Assembly: GCF_007860075.1 (NCBI RefSeq)
Contig: NZ_SJPP01000001.1
Span: forward strand, 62,001-126,000
Origin: Symmachiella macrocystis
GTDB taxonomy: Bacteria > Planctomycetota > Planctomycetia > Planctomycetales > Planctomycetaceae
Direction: 5' to 3'
DNA: 64,000 nt
The notes under the pieces are model-generated. The model made no database searches, had not been told where the DNA came from, and was given only the letters and a program-made list of their open reading frames with translations. Below are positions 23,209 through 48,504 of the stretch, in pieces. Positions within the stretch are counted from its first letter, which is position 1, and the number at the start of each line of letters is the position of its first letter. Both the position numbers and the translations under genes were made by a program.

Positions 23209-23835
23209 ATGCAAGATCGACAACAGACCGGCGGAGGTGGCTCAACGGTTAGCCGTCGCGCCTTTTTACAAGGCTCCAGTGTGGCTGTGGCCGCAACAGC
23301 CGTGGCCACCGGAGCGACTGAAGTCGTCGCCGAAGCCAATAAGCCGGCGCGGCTGAAGTCCGCGAAAGCACAAAAGGTGGTGCTGACTGTCAACGGCAAA
23401 GATCACACATTAATGATCGAGCCGCGGGTCACCCTGCTCGAAGCATTGCGTAACGACTTGAACCTGACCGGCGCCAAAGAAGTGAGCAACGTCAGTAACG
23501 ACGGCGCCGATACGGTGATCATCGACGGCAAAGCGGTTTACGCAAGCACCCGGCTGGCCATCGAAGTCGAAGGTAAGAACATCACCACCGTCGAAGGCCT
23601 GTCCGAAGGCAAGAACGTCGACGAAGTGATCACAGCCTTCGTCAAACACGATGCCACGCAGTGCGGTTATTGCACGCCGGGGTTCGTCGTCGCCGTCCGG
23701 GCATTTCTCGACAAGAATCCCGGTGCCAACTTGGAACAAATCCACAAAGGACTGGGGGGCAACCTCTGCCGTTGTGGGACCTATGCCGGTGTGACGGCCG
23801 CTGCGGTTGAATTGTGCAAAAAAGGAGGTGCCTGA
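23209..23835 (+). CDS. Tat-exported FeS subunit of a xanthine-dehydrogenase-family enzyme, one cluster site lost
   Basis: A 208-residue protein from the ATG at 23209 (GGGAGAG about 8 nt before it). Residues 1-42 are a twin-arginine signal (SRRAFLQG). A ferredoxin-like domain (about 55-120) follows, then the helical domain with CGYC (152-155) and LCRC (187-189), which hold the cluster next to the molybdenum site. In the ferredoxin domain the four Cys that normally bind the second cluster are replaced, without gaps, by Ser93, Asp98, Asp101 and Ser113; the flanking LTGAK, GAxTV and DGKAV are kept. Electron transfer to the FAD subunit would need another path. The chain ends two bases before the ATG of the next gene. 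Confidence 0.9.
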   Translation: MQDRQQTGGGGSTVSRRAFLQGSSVAVAATAVATGATEVVAEANKPARLKSAKAQKVVLTVNGKDHTLMIEPRVTLLEALRNDLNLTGAKEVSNVSNDGADTVIIDGKAVYASTRLAIEVEGKNITTVEGLSEGKNVDEVITAFVKHDATQCGYCTPGFVVAVRAFLDKNPGANLEQIHKGLGGNLCRCGTYAGVTAAAVELCKKGGA

Positions 23836-23837
23836 TT

Positions 23838-26042
23838 ATGGCGGACGAAACAAAACGCGAGTTCGCTTGGGGACCTCGCGAAGAAAACGTACTGATCGGT
23901 AAAGACATTCAGCGCATCGACGGCATTGCCAAGGCCACGGGGAAGGCGAAATATACCGCCGACATCAACACCCCCGGCACGCTGTTTGCCAGACTGTTAA
24001 CCTCGAATCAAGCCCACGCCAAAATCAAAAAGCTGAACATCGAACCAGCCAAGGCCGTTCCCGGTGTGCGGGCGGTGTATGTCTTCCCGACTGCGTTTGA
24101 TGTCGAAACGGGTGAATCTAAGGAGATCCGTTGGGACGGTGCTCCGATTGTCGCCGTGGCTGCAGACCGGCCGGAAATCGCCGCCGATGGCGTACGGGCC
24201 ATCGAAATCGAATACGAGCCGTTGCCCTTCTTCGTCGACGAAGAAAACCTCGAAGGAGCACAAAAAGCCCAAGAGGAGACGGACGAAAAACGGATCAAGA
24301 AACTTCCGAAAAGCTCAAAAGGTGATGTCGAAGCCGCTCAGTCAGAGGCGGCTGTCGTCCACACTGGCTACTATGGTATTCATACCATCAGCCACTGCTG
24401 CCTGGAACCACACGGTTCACATTGCGAATGGGATGGCGACGAAAAACTCAACGTCCATCTCTCCACGCAAAATGTTTCCGGAACGCCCGGCCAGTTCGCC
24501 GGCCCGCTGGGACTGGAGCAGTCCGCGGTGGAGGTCATCGGAAATTACGAAGGGGGCGGCTTCGGTTCGAAATTTGCCGCTGATGAATGGGGCCTTGCCT
24601 GTGCGGTGCTGGCCAAGGAAGCCGGAAAGCCTGTCCGTCTGATGCTCGACAGAGCCACCGACCTAAAAGTCGCCGGCACTCGCCCCTCTGGTTTCATCGA
24701 AATCACCATTGCCGCCGATGCGGAAGGAAATATCGTCTCTTGGGACAGCAACCTTTGGGGATCCAGTGGAATGGCGGGCGGAACGGTCTCCCCCAACCAG
24801 ATTCCCTATGTGTTTGACTTCCCGAATGTGAATCGCAATGCGACCGGATTGATTTGCAATACGGGACCCAACCGGGCTTGGCGGGCGCCCCCTCATCCAC
24901 AGCTCTGCGCTTTGACCCAGACCGCCATGGACGACGTGGCGGCCAAGCTGCAAATGGACAGTTATGACCTGTTCATGAACAATTTGCAGCACGTCAGCAA
25001 AGCGTTTGAAGAGCGTGCGGAGGTCTACGCCGAAGAGATGAAAATCGCGGCGGAAATGATCGACTGGAAAGGCAAATGGCATCCCCACGGAAAAGGCGGC
25101 GGCAACGGCGCAGTCAAACGTGGCTTAGGGATGGCACTCCATACTTGGGGCGGCGGTGCCGGTCCTTGTACATGCCTGCTCAAGGTCCATCCTGACGGTT
25201 CGGTGGAAACATTCCTCGGCAGTCAGGATCTGGGAACCGGAACGCGGACCGTGATCGCGATCGTCATGGCCGAAACATTCGGCCTAAATCTCGATGACGT
25301 GAAAGTGAACCTCGGTTCGAGCAAGTACCCCAAATCGGGAGCTTCGGGCGGTAGCATCACCGTGGGTGGCGTTTCCAGCGCACACCGCATGGCTGCCCAA
25401 TCGGCACTGTGGAAGATCTTTGATCTTGTCGCGGCGAAGTACAACGTTGGGGCCGATACGCTTTCCGCAAAGGGAGGCCAAATCCTCTCCAGCGGCAAGC
25501 CGGTCTGTTCCTGGAAACAGGCGGCCGCACTGGTCGGTCCGATGCCTTTGGAAATCCAAGGCGCCACGGAAAAAGAAGGCCTAACCTCCTCCCGTGTGGG
25601 CGGCGTGCAAATGGTCGATGTCTCGGTCGATACCGAAACCGGTAAGGTGAGCATCAACGACTTTGTCTGCGTGCAGGATTGTGGGCTCATCATCGATGAG
25701 TTGACCGCCCGCAGCCAGGTTTATGGCGGCATGATCATGGGAATTTCCTATGCTCTTACTGAAGAGCGGATCATGGACAACAAGACCGGTCGCTATATGA
25801 ACGCCGACTTGGAGAATTATAAGCTGCCGCGCATCGGCGACATCGGCAACCTGCAGGTGAAGATGTACCAACCCGCCAGCGAATACAATCGCGGTGTGGT
25901 TGGCTTGGGTGAGCCGCCGGTGATTTCGCCGGGAGCCGCCATTTCCAATGCCGTGGCCAATGCCACCGGTGTCCGCGTTCCCGTGCTCCCCTTGACCCCG
26001 CAACGGGTCCTGGACGCGTTGCAGAAAGGAGGTGCCGCATGA
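23838..26042 (+). CDS. Molybdenum-binding subunit, xanthine dehydrogenase/aldehyde oxidase family
   Basis: A 734-residue protein; the ATG at 23838 has AAGGAGGTG upstream. Motifs: VLIGKDIQRIDGIAKATGKAKY at the start, GGGFGSK (about 240) for cofactor binding, GTGTRTVIA, and GLGEPP near the C-terminus with the catalytic Glu. It has no signal peptide of its own, so it probably rides out of the cell with the Tat-bearing FeS subunit. Substrate unknown: the pocket motif normally RAFRGFG reads RAWRAPPHPQ here, so it is not a standard xanthine dehydrogenase. It overlaps the next gene by ATGA. No XdhC-like maturation gene is adjacent. Confidence 0.92.
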   Translation: MADETKREFAWGPREENVLIGKDIQRIDGIAKATGKAKYTADINTPGTLFARLLTSNQAHAKIKKLNIEPAKAVPGVRAVYVFPTAFDVETGESKEIRWDGAPIVAVAADRPEIAADGVRAIEIEYEPLPFFVDEENLEGAQKAQEETDEKRIKKLPKSSKGDVEAAQSEAAVVHTGYYGIHTISHCCLEPHGSHCEWDGDEKLNVHLSTQNVSGTPGQFAGPLGLEQSAVEVIGNYEGGGFGSKFAADEWGLACAVLAKEAGKPVRLMLDRATDLKVAGTRPSGFIEITIAADAEGNIVSWDSNLWGSSGMAGGTVSPNQIPYVFDFPNVNRNATGLICNTGPNRAWRAPPHPQLCALTQTAMDDVAAKLQMDSYDLFMNNLQHVSKAFEERAEVYAEEMKIAAEMIDWKGKWHPHGKGGGNGAVKRGLGMALHTWGGGAGPCTCLLKVHPDGSVETFLGSQDLGTGTRTVIAIVMAETFGLNLDDVKVNLGSSKYPKSGASGGSITVGGVSSAHRMAAQSALWKIFDLVAAKYNVGADTLSAKGGQILSSGKPVCSWKQAAALVGPMPLEIQGATEKEGLTSSRVGGVQMVDVSVDTETGKVSINDFVCVQDCGLIIDELTARSQVYGGMIMGISYALTEERIMDNKTGRYMNADLENYKLPRIGDIGNLQVKMYQPASEYNRGVVGLGEPPVISPGAAISNAVANATGVRVPVLPLTPQRVLDALQKGGAA

Positions 26043-27034
26043 AGTCTTTTGAATTTGCCAATCCCCAAAGCGAAACGGAAGCTTTGGAATTGATGAACGA
26101 TCACCCCGAACAAACCGCCGTCTTGGCGGGGGGAACGGATTTAATTTCGCTAATGCAAGCGGACATCATTCGCCCCGAGCGCGTGGTGGACATCAAAAAC
26201 ATCACTTCGATGCACGATGTCGCTGAAGTCGATAACGGCTTGATGGTCGGCGCCTTGACCACATTGGAAGAGGTGTTGGACAACAGCAAAATCGCCGAAT
26301 ATGCTTCTGTCGCCCAAGCGGCCGATGCGGTCCACGCGATTCAGATCCAATCTTCGGGAACTATCGCCGGCGATTTGTGCCATCTGCCCAACTGTTGGTA
26401 TTACCGCAACGGTTACGGCATGTTGGGCCTTGAGAACGGCACTTCACTGCCCGAAACGGGAGACAACCGTTATCACGCCATCTTCGGGAACTCCGGCCCG
26501 GCGAAATTTGTCACCGCCAGCCGCTTTGCTCCCGCATTGATTGCATGGGGCGCCAAAGTACGGATTATCGGCCCCGGACCGGACGAAGCGGAAATGCTCC
26601 CCTTGGAGTATTTCTACACCACCCCTCGTACTGAACGGCAGGGGACGACAGTGCTCAAGCCGGGACAATTGGTGTCGCACATTTGGTTGCCCAAAACCGC
26701 CGGTACGGTGAGCGGCAATTACGATGTGCTGCAAACCGAAGGTCTCGATTGGCCCTTGGCTTCGGCCTCGGCCACATTAACAATTTCCGGCGGGCGCGTG
26801 AGCGATGCCCGTATCGTGTTGGGGCACGTTGCTCCTACACCGTGGGTCTCGCACGACGCGGCGACGTCACTGCTCGGCAAGACGATCTCCGAAGCGACGG
26901 CCCAAGCGGCCGGCGATGCGGCGGTCAGTCGCGCCACTCCACTTTCGGATAACGGTTACAAGGTTCAACTTGCCCGTACGGCGGTCAAGCGGGCGATTTT
27001 GCGTTCCGCCGGACTGCTGGAAGGAGGTCTGTAG
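26039..27034 (+). CDS. FAD-binding subunit of the same molybdenum hydroxylase
   Basis: A 331-residue protein with the FAD pyrophosphate-binding AGGTDLI (30-36) and the second FAD block IQSSGTIAGDLCH (103-115), then the CO-dehydrogenase flavoprotein C-domain. Relatives with a 4-hydroxybenzoyl-CoA-reductase-type loop carry four Cys after this block for a [4Fe-4S] cluster. Here only Cys114 and Cys119 (LCHLPNCWYY) remain. The start overlaps the previous stop by 4 bp, so translation is coupled. Confidence 0.9.
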   Translation: MKSFEFANPQSETEALELMNDHPEQTAVLAGGTDLISLMQADIIRPERVVDIKNITSMHDVAEVDNGLMVGALTTLEEVLDNSKIAEYASVAQAADAVHAIQIQSSGTIAGDLCHLPNCWYYRNGYGMLGLENGTSLPETGDNRYHAIFGNSGPAKFVTASRFAPALIAWGAKVRIIGPGPDEAEMLPLEYFYTTPRTERQGTTVLKPGQLVSHIWLPKTAGTVSGNYDVLQTEGLDWPLASASATLTISGGRVSDARIVLGHVAPTPWVSHDAATSLLGKTISEATAQAAGDAAVSRATPLSDNGYKVQLARTAVKRAILRSAGLLEGGL

Positions 27035-27379: not shown

Positions 27380-30300
27380 TTAACCGTCTTCTCTACGTTC
27401 GATCCGCCGCAGCATTTGCTTGTAGTCCTTCAAGCATTGATGCAGTTGGCTGCGTAATGTTTTGATGTCGGCTGACTGCGAATTGGAAGCGTCGAGCAGC
27501 GGTTTCATCCAACTGTTCATCAGCTCGAACTGCTGTTGTAGCACATTGTAGATGCTGCGCGGCATTTTGTTGACGACCGTAATCTTGTGACGGTTATCGC
27601 TTGTTGATTCGGGTTCTTCGTCATCCTGCTGCTGGTCGAACGGCGCATCAACCACTTCGGGAGCGGGCATTTTTGCGACCTGCGGCTCCGGATCGGGTTG
27701 CGGTGGTGCGACTTCAGCAATTGGCGTTGGCATCACGCGTTCGGCGGCTTGCGCAGCTGTAACGAGTGCGGGAATACCGTCCGCTAAACTTCCGTGGATT
27801 GCATCTAAGCCTTCCCGCAGGCCGCTGATTTGTGCGACGAGTTGTGTCACATGTCCTTCCAGCACAGCGGAATCATCGTCCTCTTCGGCCATCGCCGCCA
27901 TACCGTCGGTCATCGCGCGGCGAATGGATTCCAGCCCGTCGGTGAACGAACCCATCTGCACGATCACCTGCCCAATCTTATCGTCGGGCGCGACTCCTTT
28001 GAGTTTGACGTTCTGCTGGAACGACCGTTTGATCGACTCCCAACGGCGGGCCTCATCTTCATTGAGGATGCCCATCAGTTCTTTGAACTTGAGCATGTTG
28101 GCTTCGGCGTCGGAGGTCAGCGTCTGTGAATCGTTTTCGTAGTTCGAAACAATCAAAGCCTGCAATTCGTCATCGTTCATAACCGGCACCACTTTTTCAG
28201 CAATGCGATTCATATTCCGATACGACCCTTGCAGCTTGAAGGCCGGTTCTGTGCGGTAATCGTCTGATTGAGCAGCGGAGCGGATGTATTCGCGGTTAAC
28301 CGCCAGAATGACATCGCGAACCCGCATCAGTTTTTTCATCGTCGCCACCATCTCACCCAGTTCCGCGGAGGAGTAATTGCCTTCCAACTCCACTCCTTCA
28401 GCACTGTCCCGCTCAGCCATGCGAATCACGGCGTAGACGTCTTTTTGGCTGCGTGTGGCGAGATGATTCAACACAGAATTCGACGTCAAGCAGTTTTCCA
28501 GATAGCTCATCTCAAACGAAGCCGCATGCTCGCCGATAATTTCGCCCAGGTTATAAATATCGGCTCGGTTGGATAGCATGTCGGGAATCTGGAATTTCTC
28601 GCCGCTTTCGGTATAGGGGTTACCCGCCATCACCACGGCGACTTTGCGGCCCCGCAGGTCATAGGTCCGCGTGCGGCCTTTGTACACGCCTTCGATCTTG
28701 CGCGTCGCATCGCACAACGAAATGAACTTTTGTAAAAACTCCGGATTGCAGTGTTGAATATCGTCGAGATAAATCATCACGTTGTCGCCCATTTCCAGAG
28801 CGAGGTTGAGCTTCTCGACTTCTTCGCGGGCACCGGCATTGGGTGCTTCATCCGGATCCAGCGATGTCACTTGATGCCCAATGGCCGGGCCGTTGATCTT
28901 CATAAAGATCACCCCCAAGCGATTGGCGACATATTCCATCAACGTGGTCTTCCCATAACCGGGAGGCGAGACCAGCAGCAACAGCCCCATCCGGTCGGTC
29001 CGTTTTCCTTCCCCTGCAGCGCCAATTTGTTTGGCGAAGTTGTCGCCGATGACCGGCAGGTAAACCTCATCCAACAAACGGTTCCGCACGAACGACGTCA
29101 ACACCCGTGGACGAAACTCTTCGAGCTTCATCTCATCACGCGCCGTTTCTACAATGTCCCGTTTCAACTGCACATAGCTATTAAACCGCGGGACGACTTG
29201 CCGGTCGTACTCCGCAAGTTTTTGCGTGAAGTCGCCGTAGCTGAGGTGATAGCCGCCCTCTTGGATCGCCGCGTGTGTCCCCAGCAACCCCGCCACGTCG
29301 CGGGTTACCGAGGCATTGACGATTTGTCGGTCGTTGAGTTTGCCTTCCAGCAGCAATCCGGCCACTTCGTCCACATAGTCTTCGGCAGCGGCATCGTCTT
29401 GTTGTTCGATGAAGGCGCCCACCCAATCTCTAGCCAGAGAAAACGCGCTCGCGGGTTCGCGATGCACGCCTTTGAGTGATGCGGTAAATTTGTCCGAAAA
29501 CCCGTTGTGATGCAGATGTTCTTCAAACCGGCGAAACAAATCCGCCGCTTGCGGGCTGATAGCAAAGCCATCGCCAACCAGCACATGAAACAGGTATTCC
29601 GCAGCGGGCGGCAAAAACGTCTCGGAAAACAAATCCGACTCTGCGGTCGCTGCTCGTAAAACGTTCTGCAAATCCGCCACGTATTGTGCCTGCGCGACGG
29701 TAGCCGGGAAGAGTTGCGTGATCGTGCCAAACCCTTTGAGCTTGGCCGTCAATAATGTCTTATGTTTCTTGTCCACAAAATGCTGCCAGACCACCAACGC
29801 CAACGCACGTGCGCGGGTATGATACCGCAGCAAGCCGATCGTGGACTCCATTTCCAACAGGTCTGCAACCAGTTTGACCGCATCGTGATCATGGACCCCT
29901 TTGACGTACGCTTCACCATACCGCGGACCCATAAACCGCTGTACAAAAGCGGTGAGTTGATCCGCATCGTATTGGCGGACGTCCTCCATAGAAGGTTCCG
30001 CACCCGACTGCGAGAGGGACCGTAGGATTTTATAGGTGAGATATTCACCGCGATAGACGGACTGATTTTCGGAGACCACTTCTTGATCCCAAACGTCGCG
30101 TGTAGCAATCAATTCCGCATTTTCAATCGGCTCGAAGAAATTCGTTCCGGTCAGATGCAGGTTCATATCGCCGTCGCGGAGTACGGTGGTCAGATCGAGC
30201 GCCTGGACGTTGACCGTAAACTGGTGTCCGCCCAGTTTGATGATATTCGCGCCGTCGACAAAGAGCTCTTGCCGGTCCTTGAGTTGCCGGACCGCATCTT

Positions 30301-32806
30301 CCTTGACCGTTTTCAAGCGGCTTTGGATGTCGTCGACCTTGACCGAATCATCAAGCTCCTGCAATTGCTTGACGATATCGCGGACTTTCTCGATCATCAA
30401 ATCCGACGCAAAATAGCCGTTGATGTCGTTGATCGACTCCAGGCTCTCCACGCGGGTCTTGATCCCTTTGAGAATCCGATCCGCCGCATTGGCCAGCGCA
30501 CCCGCACGTTTATTACGGGCCTCAACCAGCGACAGTTTTCGCGTTTCAAACGCGTTGTAGATCTCTTCCCGTTTTTCCGTCAGCTGTAACACAAACTCGT
30601 CGAATTCCGCGAACCGGCCTTCCAACTCCTCAATTTGGATCATGACCTTGGTGAGGAATTCTTCGCACTTATCCGGTGAGTCGCAGATATCCAGATAATT
30701 GACGACTCCCTGATTGAGCAACTTCATCTGCGAGCCGAACTCGGCGATGCCTTCGACCGACAACAACTCGTGCGACTTGTTCTTCAGAGCGGCGCGAGCA
30801 GCATTGACGGTGGAGAAGATTGCCGAAATGTTATCGATGATCGCGGTCCGCTGCGTCGCATCGTCGATCTTGAGATTGCTGACGATCTCGATCAGCATTT
30901 CCAACTCGGCGGCACTATTGGCAATTTCCTCTTCCACGACCTTGGCGTCGGCGACCTTCGTCAATTCGCCGATTTTGGCCTGTTCGTCAGCCACCTTCTG
31001 CTCGTAGGGAGTCAGGGCTGCCGGGTCGAGCAAAAAGGTCACGCACCGCTGCGCCAATTTGTCCGCTTCTTCAGAAACTTCCGTCTCCAACGATTCAATC
31101 AGCGGCTCGTCTACATACCGCAGATCGCGCAAGGAGATAATATCTCCCCGCACCGAACGCAGGTCCCGTAGCGAGCCGACAAAATCGTTGATGTGGTCGA
31201 ATCGCTTGCGTCCCACCGCAGAGACAATCTCACGGGTTTTTTCCCGCACCCGTTTGGTCTGTTGGGCCGTGTCTTGCTTGACGCGGAGCACCTTGTCGAA
31301 TTCGTCGATCGCCGCACCGGCTGCGTCGCGAATTTTTGTGAGCGGTTCTTTGAGCTCGAATGTCTCGGGCTTATCGATCCAGAAATACGAATCGATCACG
31401 CCGGTCGACTCTTTGACGATGTCGACATACAGATTCGCGTAGGTGTCCTCTTTTTCGATCAGCTCCAACAACTCATGGCACTCCGACATGCCCCGCACGA
31501 CATCCTTGTTGCCGATCTTGAACAAGTAGGAGTCGGTCTGCGCCGGCGGTGCAAAGTCTTCGTCGACATAAGGCGTTTGCCAAATCTGCACCGCATGGTG
31601 TTTTTGTGGTTCTTCCTGCGCTTTGAAACAGACCATTTCACCGCTGGGAAAGAACGTGAAGCCGCTACAAATCACCGGCGTTTCCACGCGTTGTTCGATG
31701 AGATTGTATTGCAACAGCACATACACGCCGGCTAGGCGATTGTAGAAGACGTACAGATAATCTTCGCCGTTCGCCGCTGCAATACGCCGCTCGAAGATCA
31801 TATCAGACAAATTGCTGCCGAACGTCTTACACAGCCCCGTCTGCAAATAATAACCGTCGGCAAAAATCAGACCGTGGTCATCGGGCAACAGCACGCAGGC
31901 GTATTCCAGTGAATCAAGCCGCTGCGCCTGTTTCAATTTGTCGTTGTACACGAAGTAACGGAATGCCGTTTCTTGATAAGGACGGACCTTGAGCAAGATC
32001 ACGTTCCCCACCAGCGCATAATGGATTTCCGCATCGTCCAGTGTTTGATCCGGGTCGTCCACCGGCTCGGCGTAGATCCCCTCGCCCGAATCGGTGTTAT
32101 CCTCGACTTTGATCGTCAGGTCGCCGCCAATCGTTTCGACGAAAATCCGATCATCGATGGAAATGTGCGGATGCCGTCCCGTTTGATGCAAGTCGCGATG
32201 CGTGCGGGTCCACTCAAATTCGTGTTGCGGCGGGTAACGGACTTCGTGGTCACTGCGGTTATCGACGTAGACCAGTTCCTCGCCCTGGATGACCCACTTG
32301 AAGGTCTTGATATCCCCCACACCCTTGCCCACACGAAAGATCATGTACAGGTGCGGACCACGGACGAAGAACTTGGCGAAGACCGCATTCTTGTAGTAAC
32401 GATAGACGTCCTGAAAATCTTTTTCGAATTGCGCATCGCCAATCAAGTCCAACGAGATCTCGTGGAACGTCCCCTCCTTGAACTCGTAGGCGGCAAAGAC
32501 ATCGGAAAGGTTCCGCTCAGTCTTTAATCCGAAATGGACGTTGTAGCCGAACAGAAACCGCTGGCCAGCCGCGACCATATCCCGGGGAACGCAATTGTGG
32601 GCTGTTGTGATCCGCTCGGTTGAGGTTAGCACCGTATCAATCGAGCCGAAGACCGTTTTGCGGGCCTCGTTCAATTGATTCAACCGTGCCCGCAAGTCCT
32701 GCCCGTGCAAATCCAGACGGTTGCGAATGATCTCATACGTGCCCCCCTGCAGCTCAACCGCCGGTTCTGCCTCGTCAGCGGTATTTTCGAGTTCTGCTTG
32801 AGCCAT
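27380..32806 (-). CDS. Giant AAA-type ATPase with coiled coils (so-called DNA repair ATPase family)
   Basis: 1808 residues. The first 440 or so look beta-rich; about 480-900 are long charged coiled coils; an AAA module follows with Walker A SPPGYGKT (Lys1286), Walker B MIYLDD (Asp1348/1349) and a sensor-like VVMAGNPYTESG near 1400. The C-terminal 250 residues are helical and acidic/Pro-rich. Proteins of this plan are annotated as DNA repair ATPase in databases, but I know no firm function. It is the last gene of a same-strand unit with a flotillin and a YqiJ-like protein, which suggests an action at the membrane rather than in DNA repair (inference). No membrane helix or signal peptide. Confidence 0.83.
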   Translation of the reverse strand: MAQAELENTADEAEPAVELQGGTYEIIRNRLDLHGQDLRARLNQLNEARKTVFGSIDTVLTSTERITTAHNCVPRDMVAAGQRFLFGYNVHFGLKTERNLSDVFAAYEFKEGTFHEISLDLIGDAQFEKDFQDVYRYYKNAVFAKFFVRGPHLYMIFRVGKGVGDIKTFKWVIQGEELVYVDNRSDHEVRYPPQHEFEWTRTHRDLHQTGRHPHISIDDRIFVETIGGDLTIKVEDNTDSGEGIYAEPVDDPDQTLDDAEIHYALVGNVILLKVRPYQETAFRYFVYNDKLKQAQRLDSLEYACVLLPDDHGLIFADGYYLQTGLCKTFGSNLSDMIFERRIAAANGEDYLYVFYNRLAGVYVLLQYNLIEQRVETPVICSGFTFFPSGEMVCFKAQEEPQKHHAVQIWQTPYVDEDFAPPAQTDSYLFKIGNKDVVRGMSECHELLELIEKEDTYANLYVDIVKESTGVIDSYFWIDKPETFELKEPLTKIRDAAGAAIDEFDKVLRVKQDTAQQTKRVREKTREIVSAVGRKRFDHINDFVGSLRDLRSVRGDIISLRDLRYVDEPLIESLETEVSEEADKLAQRCVTFLLDPAALTPYEQKVADEQAKIGELTKVADAKVVEEEIANSAAELEMLIEIVSNLKIDDATQRTAIIDNISAIFSTVNAARAALKNKSHELLSVEGIAEFGSQMKLLNQGVVNYLDICDSPDKCEEFLTKVMIQIEELEGRFAEFDEFVLQLTEKREEIYNAFETRKLSLVEARNKRAGALANAADRILKGIKTRVESLESINDINGYFASDLMIEKVRDIVKQLQELDDSVKVDDIQSRLKTVKEDAVRQLKDRQELFVDGANIIKLGGHQFTVNVQALDLTTVLRDGDMNLHLTGTNFFEPIENAELIATRDVWDQEVVSENQSVYRGEYLTYKILRSLSQSGAEPSMEDVRQYDADQLTAFVQRFMGPRYGEAYVKGVHDHDAVKLVADLLEMESTIGLLRYHTRARALALVVWQHFVDKKHKTLLTAKLKGFGTITQLFPATVAQAQYVADLQNVLRAATAESDLFSETFLPPAAEYLFHVLVGDGFAISPQAADLFRRFEEHLHHNGFSDKFTASLKGVHREPASAFSLARDWVGAFIEQQDDAAAEDYVDEVAGLLLEGKLNDRQIVNASVTRDVAGLLGTHAAIQEGGYHLSYGDFTQKLAEYDRQVVPRFNSYVQLKRDIVETARDEMKLEEFRPRVLTSFVRNRLLDEVYLPVIGDNFAKQIGAAGEGKRTDRMGLLLLVSPPGYGKTTLMEYVANRLGVIFMKINGPAIGHQVTSLDPDEAPNAGAREEVEKLNLALEMGDNVMIYLDDIQHCNPEFLQKFISLCDATRKIEGVYKGRTRTYDLRGRKVAVVMAGNPYTESGEKFQIPDMLSNRADIYNLGEIIGEHAASFEMSYLENCLTSNSVLNHLATRSQKDVYAVIRMAERDSAEGVELEGNYSSAELGEMVATMKKLMRVRDVILAVNREYIRSAAQSDDYRTEPAFKLQGSYRNMNRIAEKVVPVMNDDELQALIVSNYENDSQTLTSDAEANMLKFKELMGILNEDEARRWESIKRSFQQNVKLKGVAPDDKIGQVIVQMGSFTDGLESIRRAMTDGMAAMAEEDDDSAVLEGHVTQLVAQISGLREGLDAIHGSLADGIPALVTAAQAAERVMPTPIAEVAPPQPDPEPQVAKMPAPEVVDAPFDQQQDDEEPESTSDNRHKITVVNKMPRSIYNVLQQQFELMNSWMKPLLDASNSQSADIKTLRSQLHQCLKDYKQMLRRIERREDG

Positions 32807-36798: not shown

Positions 36799-36912
36799 GA
36801 GACTTGTAGTTCACCTTTTCAAATCCTGCCCCGCCTCTACAATACATGCTTGTATCAGCACCGCCACGTCGGTGTCCTGTTTTGTTTTAGTATTCACTCG
36901 CGAAGACATACG

Positions 36913-37980
36913 ATGCAGTATCACATCCGCAAACCTTGGCAACTCGCGCAAAAACTTCACACGCCTGAAGACGTATACGTCAACCGCCGCTGGCATCGCC
37001 GCGAGTTTCTCCGCACGTTGGGACTGAGCGCCGCAGGACTGGGCATCGGCGCGCATCTCATCGGCTGCGAAACGGCCACCGACGAAGAAGTTCTCCAATC
37101 GGGAAAAGTCGAAGTCCCCACAGCCTTGGCGGAACGCGCGCCGGAAGTCTCTGAAAAAGAGTGGGAGCCCGCCAAGGACAATTCCTTCGGCGCGCTGCAC
37201 AATCCCAACTTTGAATACGGCCGTCCGGAAACTAAAGAGGAAGACGCGAGCCGGTATACGAACTTCTATGAATTCTCCGGCAGTAAAAACAACTATAGCC
37301 GCGTCGGCGATTTTGAACCGCATCCCTGGAAATTCGAAATCTCCGGTCTATGCGGCAAGCCGCGCGTGTTTGACATCGACGACATCTACAAAATGATGCA
37401 ATTTGAAGAACGGGACTATCGGCATCGCTGTGTCGAAACCTGGGCCATGTGCGTCCCCTGGACCGGGTTTCCTTTGAGCGAACTACTCAAGAAGGTCGAA
37501 CCGACCGCCCAAGCTAAATTTGTCGGCTTCCAAACGTTCGATGTCCCCAACAAAAAGGATGAGCAGGCCGGCTTGCCCACATTTGCCGGGCCGAACATGT
37601 CCTCCGGTTACCCCTGGCCGTATACCGAAGGCTTGACGATCGACGAAGCGATGAACGAATTGGCATTCATCGCCACCGGCATCTATGGCAAACCGCTCGC
37701 CAAACAACACGGCGCGCCGATTCGTTTGGTCGTCCCCTGGAAGTATGGCTTTAAGAGTTGCAAATCGATCGTGCGAATCACGCTGACCGACAAACAGCCG
37801 GCAACTTTTTGGAATACGCTCGGACCGCAAGAATACGGTTTCACCGCCAATGTGAATCCGGAAGTCCCCCATCCACGCTGGTCACAAGCCACCGAATGGA
37901 TGCTACCGTCGCAAGCCACGCGCTACGACACGGTCATCTATAACGGCTATGGGGACTATGTGGCGAAACTGTATGCTTGA
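36913..37980 (+). CDS. msrP: Protein-methionine-sulfoxide reductase catalytic subunit, MsrP-type
   Basis: A 355-residue protein. The twin-arginine signal (HRREFLRTLGLSAAGLGIG) lies unusually deep, from residue about 28. The molybdopterin core has YRHRCVETWAMCVPWTGFPL with the Cys ligand of molybdenum, then HGAPIRLVVPWKYGFKSCKSI. This is the MsrP (YedY) sulfite-oxidase-family layout. It repairs oxidised Met in periplasmic proteins. The membrane partner MsrQ is not adjacent. Start at 36913 chosen by homology of the MQYHIRKPWQL N-terminus. Confidence 0.9.
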   Translation: MQYHIRKPWQLAQKLHTPEDVYVNRRWHRREFLRTLGLSAAGLGIGAHLIGCETATDEEVLQSGKVEVPTALAERAPEVSEKEWEPAKDNSFGALHNPNFEYGRPETKEEDASRYTNFYEFSGSKNNYSRVGDFEPHPWKFEISGLCGKPRVFDIDDIYKMMQFEERDYRHRCVETWAMCVPWTGFPLSELLKKVEPTAQAKFVGFQTFDVPNKKDEQAGLPTFAGPNMSSGYPWPYTEGLTIDEAMNELAFIATGIYGKPLAKQHGAPIRLVVPWKYGFKSCKSIVRITLTDKQPATFWNTLGPQEYGFTANVNPEVPHPRWSQATEWMLPSQATRYDTVIYNGYGDYVAKLYA

Positions 37981-44380: not shown

Positions 44381-45256
44381 TCAACGTCCCGCTTCCAACG
44401 ACGAAATCACCACGCCAGCGACATCCACCCCCGTGACCCGTGCCAGCGCCCGCCAACCGGGGACGGCATTCACTTCGATGACGTACACGCGGCCGTCGCT
44501 ATCATACAACAGATCGATCCCGGCAAACCGACACCCGGTCGCCGCTGCGGCCCGCAATGCCAACTCGGCTTCGTCGGCGGACAATTCCACCGCTGTCGCT
44601 GTACCGCTACGGGAGACGTTCGTGCGGTAATCTCCATTGCCGTGCCGCCGCATGGAACCGATCACGCGACCATCCAACACAACCGCTCGTAGATCCGAGC
44701 CATCGTGATCGACGTACCGTTGCAGATACAACACCGCCTGCGTGCGTTCCAATGTGCGAAACGTACGAAACGCCAAATCGGGATCGCTGACCCGCGATAT
44801 CCCTCGCCCCTCAGCCCCGAAGATCGGCTTGACGATCACATCGCCTCCCAATTGATCATACGCCGCCATCGCGGATTCGGAATTCTCACACACCACCGTC
44901 GCAGGAACAGGCAAACCGGCCGCTTGCAGCCGGGCCGTGGTCAAATATTTATCGACCGCGCATTCAATGGCTTTTGGCGAATTGAGTACCGTGACCCCGG
45001 CCGATTCCAATTGCGCCAACAGATCCATGCGGAACACGACCTGCTCCAACGACCCCGGCGGCATCGTCCGCACAATCACAGCATCGCAGTCGGACAAGAC
45101 AATGTCATCGCCGTGCATGGTCGAGTCATTCGCGACAACGGTCGCCGTGAGCCGCCGAAAATCGACGCGGGAGAATCGATGCCCCCGCACGTGCGCCGCC
45201 CGTTCTAAATCGCGGCGGTACCAACTGTCGGCATTTGCTAAGACGACGATATGCAT
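44381..45256 (-). CDS. RimK-like ATP-grasp ligase, probably for tetrahydromethanopterin
   Basis: A 291-residue protein with the ATP-grasp layout: VDKYLTTARLQAAGLPVPATVV, the GGDVIVKPIFGAEGRGI nucleotide-binding loop (about 137-153), LQRYVDHDGSDLRAVVL and a C-terminal DLLYDSDGRVYVIEVNAVPGW carrying metal-binding Glu/Asn. The RimK group adds Glu to proteins or cofactors. It lies 32 bp behind the mch gene on the same strand, the arrangement in which the ligase adds glutamate to tetrahydromethanopterin in methylotrophic C1 pathways (inference from family and context). Confidence 0.87.
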   Translation of the reverse strand: MHIVVLANADSWYRRDLERAAHVRGHRFSRVDFRRLTATVVANDSTMHGDDIVLSDCDAVIVRTMPPGSLEQVVFRMDLLAQLESAGVTVLNSPKAIECAVDKYLTTARLQAAGLPVPATVVCENSESAMAAYDQLGGDVIVKPIFGAEGRGISRVSDPDLAFRTFRTLERTQAVLYLQRYVDHDGSDLRAVVLDGRVIGSMRRHGNGDYRTNVSRSGTATAVELSADEAELALRAAAATGCRFAGIDLLYDSDGRVYVIEVNAVPGWRALARVTGVDVAGVVISSLEAGR

Positions 45257-45288
45257 GAAATTAAAACGTCAGCTACCCGCGAGAGATT

Positions 45289-46239
45289 TTAAAAGCCAAA
45301 CGACCGGGAGAGAATATCGGGAGCCACGTTGCCGAACCGCTGCACGTTGCCGGTCTCGACGTTTTGAAACATAATTTCCGCCGGGCTAAACAGATGAGGA
45401 TCGATCTGATAGAAGTCGCGCCCCGCTGCCTCAAAGATTTCCAGAAAGGGCTGACCATAAGCCTGCGAAGAAACCGAGGGGACTTGCGGCCCGATTGTGG
45501 ATAACGAATCATCGTCTCCCGTCACCCATAAGGTCACGCGTCCGCCATAGAGGATCGCGTCATTCGTGCGGCCGATTCCATTGAGAAAATCCCCGGCCAC
45601 CGGCGACAATGGAGCCGTGCCATATCCGCTGACAATCCGGCTCATATCAAAGCCAAGCTCCAAGAGCTTGTGCAAAGCGGTCTCGACAACGCGGGCGACG
45701 ACTTGAAAATTGCCGGCAATACTCGCCGTCGGCGCCGCCAATATGGTGATCTGCTCCGCAGCCAGTTTGGTGCGTTCGGCGATGAAGGCGAACACCTTTT
45801 CATCGGGTAGTTGATCGGTCTCCAACACGCCGACACATTGCGACGGTTTTTCGCGGTAGTCGAGTTTCTCATACAGATCCTCGCGTGCTGCCACGGCGCG
45901 CATCGGTCCCGAGCCCATACCGAAGAACTTTTCGACGGCGATCTGCCAGCCTGCATATTGGCTCAACAGGCACGCAGCTACGGGATTGTCAGTCGCCACC
46001 TGCACGTAAGGACAACCGATCCCGCCGATATCACCCGGGATCATCGAAACCTCAGCTAACCCCGCCGTACAAACCTGCGCCAGCGCCAAACCGGCGCCCA
46101 GTCCGCCGCCGACGTTCACACCACAATCGATCACTCGCCCCCCACCAGGAACTGAGTGCGATTGAATCCGTAATTGCTCGGCAACGGGAAGCAGACCCTC
46201 TACCGCCGCCAGCGCTCGTTCGTTGAGATTCCAATCCAT
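45289..46239 (-). CDS. mch: Methenyltetrahydromethanopterin cyclohydrolase
   Basis: A 316-residue protein of the Mch family: GGRVIDCGVNVGGGLGAGL near residue 31, MIPGDIGGIGCPYVQV near 66, the GMGSGPMRAVAARE block (about 106-120), SQCVGVLET, and AGDFLNGIGRTNDAILYGG toward the C-terminus. It interconverts methenyl- and formyl-H4MPT in the tetrahydromethanopterin C1 pathway, which is known to occur in Planctomycetes. AAGAAG precedes the ATG. Upstream of the RimK-like gene. Confidence 0.94.
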   Translation of the reverse strand: MDWNLNERALAAVEGLLPVAEQLRIQSHSVPGGGRVIDCGVNVGGGLGAGLALAQVCTAGLAEVSMIPGDIGGIGCPYVQVATDNPVAACLLSQYAGWQIAVEKFFGMGSGPMRAVAAREDLYEKLDYREKPSQCVGVLETDQLPDEKVFAFIAERTKLAAEQITILAAPTASIAGNFQVVARVVETALHKLLELGFDMSRIVSGYGTAPLSPVAGDFLNGIGRTNDAILYGGRVTLWVTGDDDSLSTIGPQVPSVSSQAYGQPFLEIFEAAGRDFYQIDPHLFSPAEIMFQNVETGNVQRFGNVAPDILSRSFGF

Positions 46240-46308: not shown

Positions 46309-46926
46309 TTACTTGCCATCATCGTCATCGGCTTCGACGTCGGGAGTGGCGGAGTCAGTCTCCGGATTGGACTGCCGCTGCGTAGAGCGGTTGATCTCTT
46401 TCCGCAGATACGACGGAAGCGGACGATCTTCAAAGCGCAGTCGAATCGGTCCCTGACAACACTCGCATTCTTTGATCTCGTACATGGGGATCGAACAAAT
46501 ATCACACCAGTAGTCGGTGTATTTCCGCTCCCCCTTCTCATCAAAGGTATAGACGATCAACACTTGGGCATAAGGATTGTCAGACCGGCGCCGCACGACG
46601 AGTTGCACCTTGCGATCCCGCAGCCGCTCATCCTGATAAAACGCGCGGCCTCGCCAATCGGCCACCAGTGGAACCAAGTCTCCGTTCTCGGCAATCAGCA
46701 CGACCTGCTTGTCCATCTCGTCGTAGGCTTTGACGCCCCGAGCACGCAGAGCCGGGCCCAGAAACTTGACTTGGCCGGTCAGCAATTCCTTGCGGGCCTT
46801 GTCCTGTTTTTCCGTCTGCTCTTCAGCCACTGCCTCTGGCGCGGGTGCAGTTTTTTCTTCACCGCGCGCCTCGACTACGCAAACAGCCGCTGCGATCCAC
46901 AGCAAACCCAAAATAACGCGACTCAT
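46309..46926 (-). CDS. Secreted hypothetical protein with a Cys-cluster domain
   Basis: A 205-residue protein. Signal peptide to about residue 22 (VEARGEE), an Ala/Glu/Lys linker, then a beta-rich domain (VVLIAENGDLVPLVADWRGRAFYQDERLRDRKVQLVVRRR) and a Cys cluster WCDICS...CECCQGP (about 140-158) that could bind zinc or a haem/FeS centre. The C-terminal 30 residues are Asp-rich. It starts directly at the stop of the gene upstream and is part of one unit with it. Not recognised beyond this. Confidence 0.72.
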   Translation of the reverse strand: MSRVILGLLWIAAAVCVVEARGEEKTAPAPEAVAEEQTEKQDKARKELLTGQVKFLGPALRARGVKAYDEMDKQVVLIAENGDLVPLVADWRGRAFYQDERLRDRKVQLVVRRRSDNPYAQVLIVYTFDEKGERKYTDYWCDICSIPMYEIKECECCQGPIRLRFEDRPLPSYLRKEINRSTQRQSNPETDSATPDVEADDDDGK

Positions 46927-47604
46927 CTATTCCCCCGCTCCCACAACCACAATCCGCACCAACAACGGAACCGGCTTGTCGGCCGCTTTGCCGGTCGTGG
47001 TCAACTGCAGAATCTGAAAGTCGTGGTCTTCATCGTGGATGATTTTCGATTCCTTCTCCGGTTTTTCAGGAGGGGCGCTCATCAGAAAAATCGCCGGATG
47101 TGTTGATCCAGCCGCCTCAGCTGACTGCTCATTCAGTTGCATGGGATTGAAGATCGGTTTGGGATCTTTATCGCGCTCTGCCGGGAGCGCCATGCAGAAA
47201 TCGCGAATCTCGCTCGTCCCCAAATGGTTGCCATCCTCAGGTTGTTGACCATATCGCAACGTATATACGCCTGCCGGAATTTCCTGGGAGCGAAAATCGA
47301 ATCCGCTCGAGCCTTCGGGAAACTGAATCGCCCCCAGTAGTTGGCCATTCGTAAACGGATACGCCACGCTCTGACTCGGCTTAAATTTTGGCTTCACCGC
47401 CAAGTCCTTCGCCAACCAAACCACACAGAGCACGCCGTCAGGCCCTGTGACTTGTTGTCCGGACTCGTGCAATACCGCAGCAATTTTGGGCGACAACCCC
47501 TCGGGCAGGCCCTTCACTTCCTTGAGTTTGTGCGAAGACTCGGCCGCAACTAAGGGTCCGGCGAACAGACAGAACCCGACAGCAAGTGTGCTAAAAAACT
47601 TCAT
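46927..47604 (-). CDS. Secreted hypothetical protein
   Basis: A 225-residue protein from the ATG at 47604 (GGGGA 6 nt upstream). Signal peptide to about residue 21 (VAAE). Mid-region FDFRSQEIPAGVYTLRYGQQPEDGNHLGTSEIRDFCMAL resembles the stem of a cupin- or DUF2911-like beta protein. No catalytic residues could be assigned. The stop is immediately adjacent to the start of the Cys-cluster gene, so both belong to one transcript. Function unknown. Confidence 0.7.
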   Translation of the reverse strand: MKFFSTLAVGFCLFAGPLVAAESSHKLKEVKGLPEGLSPKIAAVLHESGQQVTGPDGVLCVVWLAKDLAVKPKFKPSQSVAYPFTNGQLLGAIQFPEGSSGFDFRSQEIPAGVYTLRYGQQPEDGNHLGTSEIRDFCMALPAERDKDPKPIFNPMQLNEQSAEAAGSTHPAIFLMSAPPEKPEKESKIIHDEDHDFQILQLTTTGKAADKPVPLLVRIVVVGAGE

Positions 47605-47754
47605 ATGCAATCCCCAAAACCTCAATGGTCGCAAATAGCTCTATGGTAAGACCGCATCGACAACCCCAGGACAGACGCCGCCAATGCCCGACACGTCGTA
47701 TTCATTGTACGCAGACTCGCGGCTCGGTTACAGGTTGAGCGGGTGCGTTGCGGA

Positions 47755-47794
47755 TAATAAAAGAGCGGGAGCCGGCAATACCGGACATCCCGCT
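47755..47794 (-). terminator. Terminator of the DUF1326 gene
   Basis: On the minus strand GAGCGGGA pairs with TCCCGCTC across an inner CCGG stem and is followed by TTTTATT, 38 bp past the stop at 47833. Confidence 0.7.
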
Positions 47795-47832
47795 CGAAAA
47801 ATCATGCGTTAGCAAAGTGGTGTACGTCCCCG

Positions 47833-48504
47833 TTATTTCTCAAACGTGGCCAAAAATGCACTCCGTTGACCCGGGAGTTCCCACGTTTGGTTTAATCCCT
47901 TGCCCGTGTATTTGAGTTGCTTAGTGAAGGCCGGGTGGTAATTGTCGACATCGGTCAACGGCGGATAAAAAATATCCTCGTTCGTGCAAATACAATCACC
48001 ATGCCTCAGTTCGCGCGTTTCAATTTCCGCCAAATCGCCCGCCTTCAAGACTCCCACCCCTTCGACGTGGTCGTTTTTGAATTGAATATCGGTCGATTCG
48101 ACCCGTTTAACGTGTTGGGTTAATTTTTTGGCTGAGTACTTCACAAAGGCGATCAGCGCGTCGCGTTGTTGCTGATTCGCTTTGTTATCAACCAAAATGA
48201 CCGACTCGATTGGATCGGGACTGATACGGAATGATCCGCCAAAACCGAGCGTATCCTCGCCTTTGATCACCAAGACAGCAGACAGGTTTTTCAACTCGAC
48301 ACCTTGCCAAGAACCTTTGTCGACTTTCCAAGCCAAGACCGCTTCTTTGCCCGACAAGCCGATTTCGCCATTTGCGAAACAGGGTCCCGTCCAAACATCG
48401 CACGAACGGGCTTCAAGATATTCACCAGAAATCTCAGCCCCGAAACCAGGCGTCGCAGCCAAAATCGTGAGGCAGCCGGCCAGTAACAACGGTTTACAGG
48501 TCAT
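47833..48504 (-). CDS. DUF1326-type secreted protein
   Basis: A 223-residue protein with a signal peptide (to about residue 22, GFGAE). The GEYLEARSCDVWTGPCFANGEIG start is the hallmark of DUF1326 (YLEARSC...GPCF). ISGEYLEARS and the later GDCICTNEDIFYPPL Cys pair suggest disulfides or a metal site. No function is known for the family. A same-strand hairpin terminator follows. Confidence 0.82.
   Translation of the reverse strand: MTCKPLLLAGCLTILAATPGFGAEISGEYLEARSCDVWTGPCFANGEIGLSGKEAVLAWKVDKGSWQGVELKNLSAVLVIKGEDTLGFGGSFRISPDPIESVILVDNKANQQQRDALIAFVKYSAKKLTQHVKRVESTDIQFKNDHVEGVGVLKAGDLAEIETRELRHGDCICTNEDIFYPPLTDVDNYHPAFTKQLKYTGKGLNQTWELPGQRSAFLATFEK

Follow-up and report, generated by a model that had tools for sequence, protein, structure and literature searches.

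The window analysed here, a 64,000-nucleotide stretch of the Symmachiella macrocystis genome, contains a three-gene operon in the order FeS–Mo–FAD, whose product, judged by its sequence, is a member of the xanthine oxidase family by descent, albeit a non-standard one with one defining cofactor missing. The first gene (23209..23835, + strand) has been assigned by translation, alignment, Pfam and NCBIfam to a PaoA/XdhC-like FeS subunit of 208 aa with a Tat signal; the signal passes the NCBIfam model TAT_signal_seq (19.5 bits, cut-off 16.7) and scores below the cut-off of Pfam TAT_signal (17.4 against 22.7 bits), and the enzyme appears to be exported. The domain of the molybdenum-proximal cluster, FeSI, is recognised as Fer2_2 (PF01799; 85.9 bits) with all of its Cys present (C152, C155, C187 and C189, in the arrangement CxxC...CxC). 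For the plant-type [2Fe-2S] cluster, FeSII, no Pfam match to the Fer2 domain was obtained at E 0.01, and the Cx4CxxC...C site of the xanthine oxidase family is absent; in phmmer alignments with the FeS chains of 5Y6Q, 1FFU (CutS) and 5G5G (PaoA), S93, D98, D101 and S113 (codons AGC, GAC, GAT and AGC) fall without gaps on the four plant-type Cys. The original prediction, that all four plant-type ligands had been replaced in an undamaged frame while the flanks and the molybdenum-proximal cluster were kept, is borne out by these observations, and an ordinary FeSII cluster is very probably no longer built in enzymes of the window type.

The two partner subunits retain the features expected of the family. 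A PaoC/XdhA-like molybdenum subunit (23838..26042, +) has been identified by its match to 5G5H_C (E 1.4e-60), by Pfam (MoCoBD_1, MoCoBD_2 and Ald_Xan_dh_C) and by the conserved motifs GGFGSK, QDLGTG and GLGE, which we take to be cofactor and catalytic motifs of the xanthine oxidase family. Its Glu 692 (counted from the ATG at 23838) aligns with the catalytic Glu, and the Glu aligned there is kept in 55 of 56 FeSII-less rows. The PaoB/CoxM-like FAD subunit (26039..27034, +), assigned by homology and FAD_binding_5 (102.5 bits), keeps both glycine loops, AGGTD and GTIAGD; together, the two subunits are homologous to PaoC/PaoB and CutL/CutM. Of the Cys of the PaoB/4-HBCR-type [4Fe-4S] insertion, the FAD subunit retains only some, in the window and likewise in FeSII-bearing sisters of the family, so the idea that this insertion was lost in step with FeSII was rejected.

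Elsewhere in the window, ∼10 kb from the operon, a second type of molybdopterin enzyme resembling MsrP (Oxidored_molyb; 36850-37980, +) is encoded, and an 1808-aa protein with DUF3686, DUF7902 and AAA domains lies at 27380-32806 (−). Also encoded in the same genome are another FeS subunit of this enzyme family, in which every Cys is present, and one XdhC_C protein.

Several characterised enzymes share parts of this architecture. The periplasmic aldehyde oxidoreductase PaoABC of E. coli (5G5G) is alike in its three homologous subunits and in the Tat signal on its FeS subunit, but PaoA has both [2Fe-2S] clusters whereas the window enzyme lacks the FeSII ligands, and the window operon differs further in its FeS–Mo–FAD order and in the incomplete [4Fe-4S]-insertion Cys of its FAD subunit. 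The window subunits score 144 for PaoA (cut-off 322) and 317 for PaoC (cut-off 1180), such that by the equivalog criterion the window enzyme is not a PaoABC orthologue; the terminal electron acceptor of PaoABC is itself given as not identified in the accessible text of one account (PMC3958847). Desulfovibrio gigas aldehyde oxidoreductase has a shortened chain passing electrons to an external protein, according to the available portions of two reports (PMC10223205, PMC12316806), but there the FAD domain is missing and FeSII is present as the more exposed of the two clusters, whereas the window enzyme has retained its FAD subunit and lost FeSII. Other solved members, including glyceraldehyde oxidoreductase (4ZOH), CO dehydrogenase (1FFU) and 4-HBCR (1RM6), are alike in FeS fold and subunit sequences and unlike in running their chain through both [2Fe-2S] clusters, as described in the text available for PMC4726530. 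Among titles and abstract openings in the open-licence literature, no report was found of an FeSII-less member of the xanthine oxidase family.

The replacement is shared with relatives of the window enzyme. Two other genomes of the genus also lack the FeSII Cys, with SDDS and GDDG at the four positions. Within the window's family, 90 of 170 genomes were matched at E 1e-40, of which 12 matches from one genus (g56), starting near residue 50 with no Tat part and represented by one fetched locus with all four Cys (CCCC; L275), were excluded; all 78 remaining loci were read, giving 42 CCCC operons and 36 FeSII-less ones, the window among the latter. Cys-bearing homologues at the same locus, which the original prediction had named as evidence against itself, therefore do exist, but what they indicate is that the lineage itself lost the Cys (or lost and regained them), not an error. 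Recurrence of the Cys loss across many separate genomes rules out sequencing or assembly error in practice, in agreement with the earlier judgement that errors at four independent codons were unlikely.

FeSII loss is also wider than the window gene: it recurs within the family, and eight further families of the class show it too. A profile built from FeSII-less members matches 151 of 397 genomes of the class at E 1e-55, and 99 of these belong to other families than the window's; there, each of the 23 best-scoring loci lacks FeSII, and one fragment (L274) brings the number of FeSII-less loci to 24, in families f5, f107, f108, f109, f111, f114, f117 and f118, although no frequency for the class can be derived from loci chosen by their similarity to FeSII-less enzymes. 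A broad bacterial and archaeal scan, with search patterns lying in FeSI and with records near the window's genome possibly missing (though Planctomycetia stands in the title of one or more of the 80), found CCCC in 80 of 80 relatives among the matches listed. In a phylum sample of 392 genomes, the best 30 loci comprise 25 CCCC and five FeSII-less enzymes, four of the latter from the window's family (window included) and one from another family of the class.

An alignment of 130 FeS subunits (the 78 family rows and, from outside the family, the 24 FeSII-less loci plus 28 comparators with FeSII, among them three rows of a different, non-Tat paralogue) reveals a sharply divided pattern, with four FeSII Cys in 70 rows, none in 50, one in 10, and two or three in no row. 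This distribution is far from chance, and the FeSI Cys are complete in all 127 scorable rows, the other three being truncated there. A stepwise course may be envisaged in which loss of the first ligand costs the cluster and any leftover free Cys are subsequently eliminated; the absence of rows with two or three Cys would follow from this.

The residues that replace the Cys fall into two broad types, distinguished at position 101, which is Asp in 30, Ser in 26 and Ala in 4 of the 60 FeSII-less rows. D-type rows, with Asp at 101, all lie within the window's family and vary at position 93 (S, D, E, Q, K, G, F or Y) and 113 (S, G or N); the other FeSII-less rows, designated S-type, typically read LTGAKPVS.DGSSGASTV, with six inside the family and 24 outside. 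A single D-type lineage (L074, L079, L084 and L086) retains one FeSII Cys (FCDS/YCDS) and has a one-residue loop insertion. The prevalence of Asp and Ser at position 101, together with four candidate ligands in 24 of the 60 quartets, including the window's type, would be compatible with a cluster or metal still held by oxygen ligands (Asp, Ser or Glu), either as a non-cysteinyl [2Fe-2S] cluster or as a mononuclear metal; this is considered improbable, as candidate ligands number at most three in the other 36 quartets, whose remaining positions include Gly, Ala, Val, Lys, Phe, Gln or Asn, and 19 of the 60 have at most two residues able to bind Fe. Asp101, present in 30 FeSII-less rows, may take over hydrogen bonds once made to the negatively charged cluster.

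FeSII was apparently lost several times over, although the loss counts rest on trees and are the weak point of the analysis. A quick-search tree built from 113 rows of Mo and FAD subunits joins the 29 S-type rows, from nine families, in one clade with SH-aLRT 100; D-type rows are interspersed with CCCC rows. Unordered parsimony on this tree requires seven state changes, five of them forced by starred branches; an FeS-subunit tree with the FeSII columns removed (89 rows) requires ten, with 9–11 over bootstraps and six forced. If regain is disallowed, the Mo–FAD tree implies ten losses, falling to eight or seven when branches under 80 or 95 support are collapsed. The deepest branches of the window's family are FeSII-less, so early loss followed by later regain also fits the topology; the variety of replacement residues, however, favours repeated loss. 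Near S-type operons of two genera (L119, L125, L126 and L127), XdhC-like and, in some, MobA-like proteins were also noted, named by eye.

Selection estimates bear on whether these operons are decaying. By NG86, with synonymous sites near saturation in some pairs and not every gene available in every pair, dN/dS between FeSII-less enzymes is 0.015–0.138 for the emptied domain (14 pairs), 0.027–0.132 for the Mo subunit (13 pairs) and 0.046–0.168 for the FAD subunit (12 pairs). CCCC pairs give 0.015–0.125 for the same domain in eleven pairs and 0.31 in a twelfth from outside the family, 0.04–0.123 for the Mo subunit with 0.225 in one pair outside the family, and 0.054–0.133 for the FAD subunit in nine family pairs with 0.285 in one pair outside. 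Purifying selection thus acts on the emptied domain as well as on the FAD subunit, which speaks against decay. A decaying pseudo-enzyme operon would account for the missing cofactor, for the weakening of the first FAD loop that eight of the 26 D-type rows show and for two FeSII-less FAD values (0.153 and 0.168) above those of the family CCCC pairs, but with all three subunits at 0.015–0.17 and the FeSII-less S-type maintained across nine families, this explanation is very improbable. Relaxed selection on the FAD subunit, considered separately, was not borne out by the ranges (0.046–0.168 against 0.054–0.133), even though the two highest FeSII-less values exceed the maximum of the nine scorable family CCCC pairs.

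Retention of the FAD gene is similarly consistent. It is found at the locus in 52 of 60 FeSII-less cases, and in six others the available sequence ends first; in the remaining two, both of genus g368 (L261 and L263), it is not beside the FeS and Mo genes, one of these loci having just ∼1 kb of sequence remaining beside the Mo gene, and a strong match lies on another contig of both genomes, so that loss of the FAD gene was rejected. All 36 CCCC rows of the family have an intact first FAD loop, as do 25 of the 26 S-type and 18 of the 26 D-type rows, with seven of the eight D-type breaks falling in one clade. A kept gene with a mostly intact loop rather suggests that FAD is still used, which counts against electrons leaving the enzyme from FeSI.

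In the textbook view, Mo, FeSI, FeSII and FAD form a linear electron wire inside one enzyme. The published chain passes through both [2Fe-2S] clusters (PMC4726530), by which electrons get to FAD (PMC8615798), and mutating Fe/S Cys of the mammalian enzyme leads to loss of activity and of the Mo cofactor (PMC8615798), as far as the available text of these sources goes; this last result counts against an enzyme that would still work without FeSII. Cofactor hops in line are given there as 13.4, 11.5 (FeSI–FeSII) and 7.0 Å (FeSII–FAD) (PMC4726530), and in the accessible part of a second source as 13.5, 13.8 (FeSI–FeSII) and 10.8 Å (FeSII–FAD), with a usual hop below 14 Å (PMC8305194). Summing the published hops, FeSI and FAD would stand ∼18–25 Å apart without FeSII, above the usual 14 Å (PMC4726530, PMC8305194). 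The changed electron path of the original prediction is less directly grounded than the replacement itself: it is suggested by the position of FeSII as the link to FAD in the portions of the literature available (PMC8615798, PMC4726530).

Structure prediction suggests that the emptied domain is otherwise conventional. Modelled as a single chain with AlphaFold2, the window FeS subunit takes the usual fold at a mean pLDDT of 82.6, its best match in Foldseek being 5Y6Q_A (E 7e-17), and the emptied domain retains its length. Confidence falls to 83 at residues 81-90 and 75 at 91-100, against 95 and 91 in a CCCC relative modelled with the same 39 sequences, a dip that fits a cluster-less loop but is also expected from the Cys in the other 38 sequences.

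Two routes for the electrons may be weighed against this geometry. That they still pass from FeSI to FAD, with a rearrangement of the domains bringing FAD into tunnelling range of FeSI and FeSII being bypassed, gains from the steady retention of FAD, whose gene is found in 54 of the 60 cases (the other six being cut by the end of the sequence), whose loops are mostly intact and whose subunit remains under purifying selection in the 12 FeSII-less pairs; yet a domain that keeps its length and its modelled fold should leave the distance at ∼18–25 Å, and no convincing change of Mo or FAD residues tracking the FeSII state beyond the site itself was detected in 527 columns (about five independent contrasts). 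One such change, at FAD-subunit Tyr191, looked promising by raw counts and was rejected, its contrast being 1.43 against an SD of 0.95 over the 527 columns, and the window enzyme keeping the Tyr. This route is therefore regarded as rather doubtful, ranking next after the alternative in which electrons exit from FeSI to another acceptor, the highest-ranked of the readings. Since FeSI–FeSII–FAD hops would be impossible at normal distances, electrons would leave from FeSI to an outside partner: hydroxylation of the substrate would continue at Mo, electrons would still get to FeSI, the acceptor would be a periplasmic carrier that docks close to the emptied ferredoxin domain, and this domain would itself be retained as a scaffold between the Mo and FAD subunits. 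It is most likely that Mo and FeSI still work and that electrons leave without FeSII; the fuller proposal, of a Tat-exported PaoABC-like molybdenum hydroxylase with Mo, FeSI and probably FAD in which FeSI hands its electrons to a partner that is not part of the classical chain, is advanced tentatively, with somewhat less than even confidence.

A further possibility dispenses with electron export altogether. Were the Mo reaction non-redox or internally balanced, with FeSI serving as a structural element or an electron buffer, loss of the exit cluster beside conserved Mo-site motifs would be readily understood. The one hydratase claim known for this kind of enzyme reportedly concerns MhyADH, a molybdenum enzyme. 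That claim was later doubted, according to the accessible part of one report (PMC4052635), and Cys-bearing and Cys-less sisters alternate in one family and share the same accompanying genes, which speaks against the type of reaction having switched with every loss; the absence of net electron output is accordingly judged quite improbable.

An exported partner is what exit from FeSI would require, and a candidate is provided by an unnamed three-gene module, which in the window lies at 46309-48504 (−) and which is found beside many of the enzyme operons. It comprises c2 (46309..46926, −), an unnamed family with the conserved motif DYWCxxCxIxM..CxCCQ and an invariant C..C...C.CC pattern; c0 (46927..47604, −), a second unnamed family, put forward, like c2, as a candidate partner on the basis of co-occurrence; and c1 (47833..48504, −), a DUF1326 protein (PF07040; 42.1 bits, cut-off 25). 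Both c0 and c2 have signal-peptide-like N-termini by eye, and neither has a Pfam match at E 0.001 or a significant PDB relative. Within the window's family, c0 occurs in 68 of 78 genomes with the enzyme against 3 of 92 without it, and c2 in 67 of 78 against 5 of 92; outside the family, c0 is present in 97 of 99 enzyme genomes, including 24 of 24 with the S-type, and, at the cut-offs used, also in 55 enzyme-less genomes. All three genes lie near the operon in 16 of 41 FeSII-less loci with full flanks against 1 of 33 CCCC loci; the module was nevertheless rejected as a marker of the FeSII-less state, because genome-wide it accompanies the enzyme whatever the state of FeSII, and it cannot alone explain loss of the cluster. 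The DUF1326/c0/c2 module is a candidate partner of the enzyme and the best genomic candidate for the FeSI acceptor. The more specific proposal, that FeSII has been dispensed with many times, with FeSI feeding a dedicated exported DUF1326/c0/c2 partner and Mo chemistry decoupled from a flavin that is still carried, is possible but distinctly doubtful.

Directly behind the module (44381-46239, −) lie mch (PF02289), a gene of the tetrahydromethanopterin pathway, and a gene for a RimK-like ATP-grasp ligase. That pathway is known from planctomycetes, as noted in the available text of PMC5020050. In 30 of 72 family genomes with c2, c2 lies within 1.5 kb of mch; for the other 42, the two were compared and not adjacent in 13, while in 29 mch lies on another contig (23), is absent (4) or has no row (2). 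A link between mch and the module was rejected as non-specific, mch being present in 158 of 170 family genomes.

The occurrence of close relatives with and without FeSII, separated by 7–10 losses if regain is excluded, provides a natural series for examining the role of this cluster as wire, electron store or structural element, and for following how a protein swaps a cluster for ordinary residues. An unnamed three-gene module has, in addition, been found to accompany the enzyme through a bacterial class. If electrons do leave from FeSI to an exported partner, this would represent a new wiring of the xanthine oxidase family.
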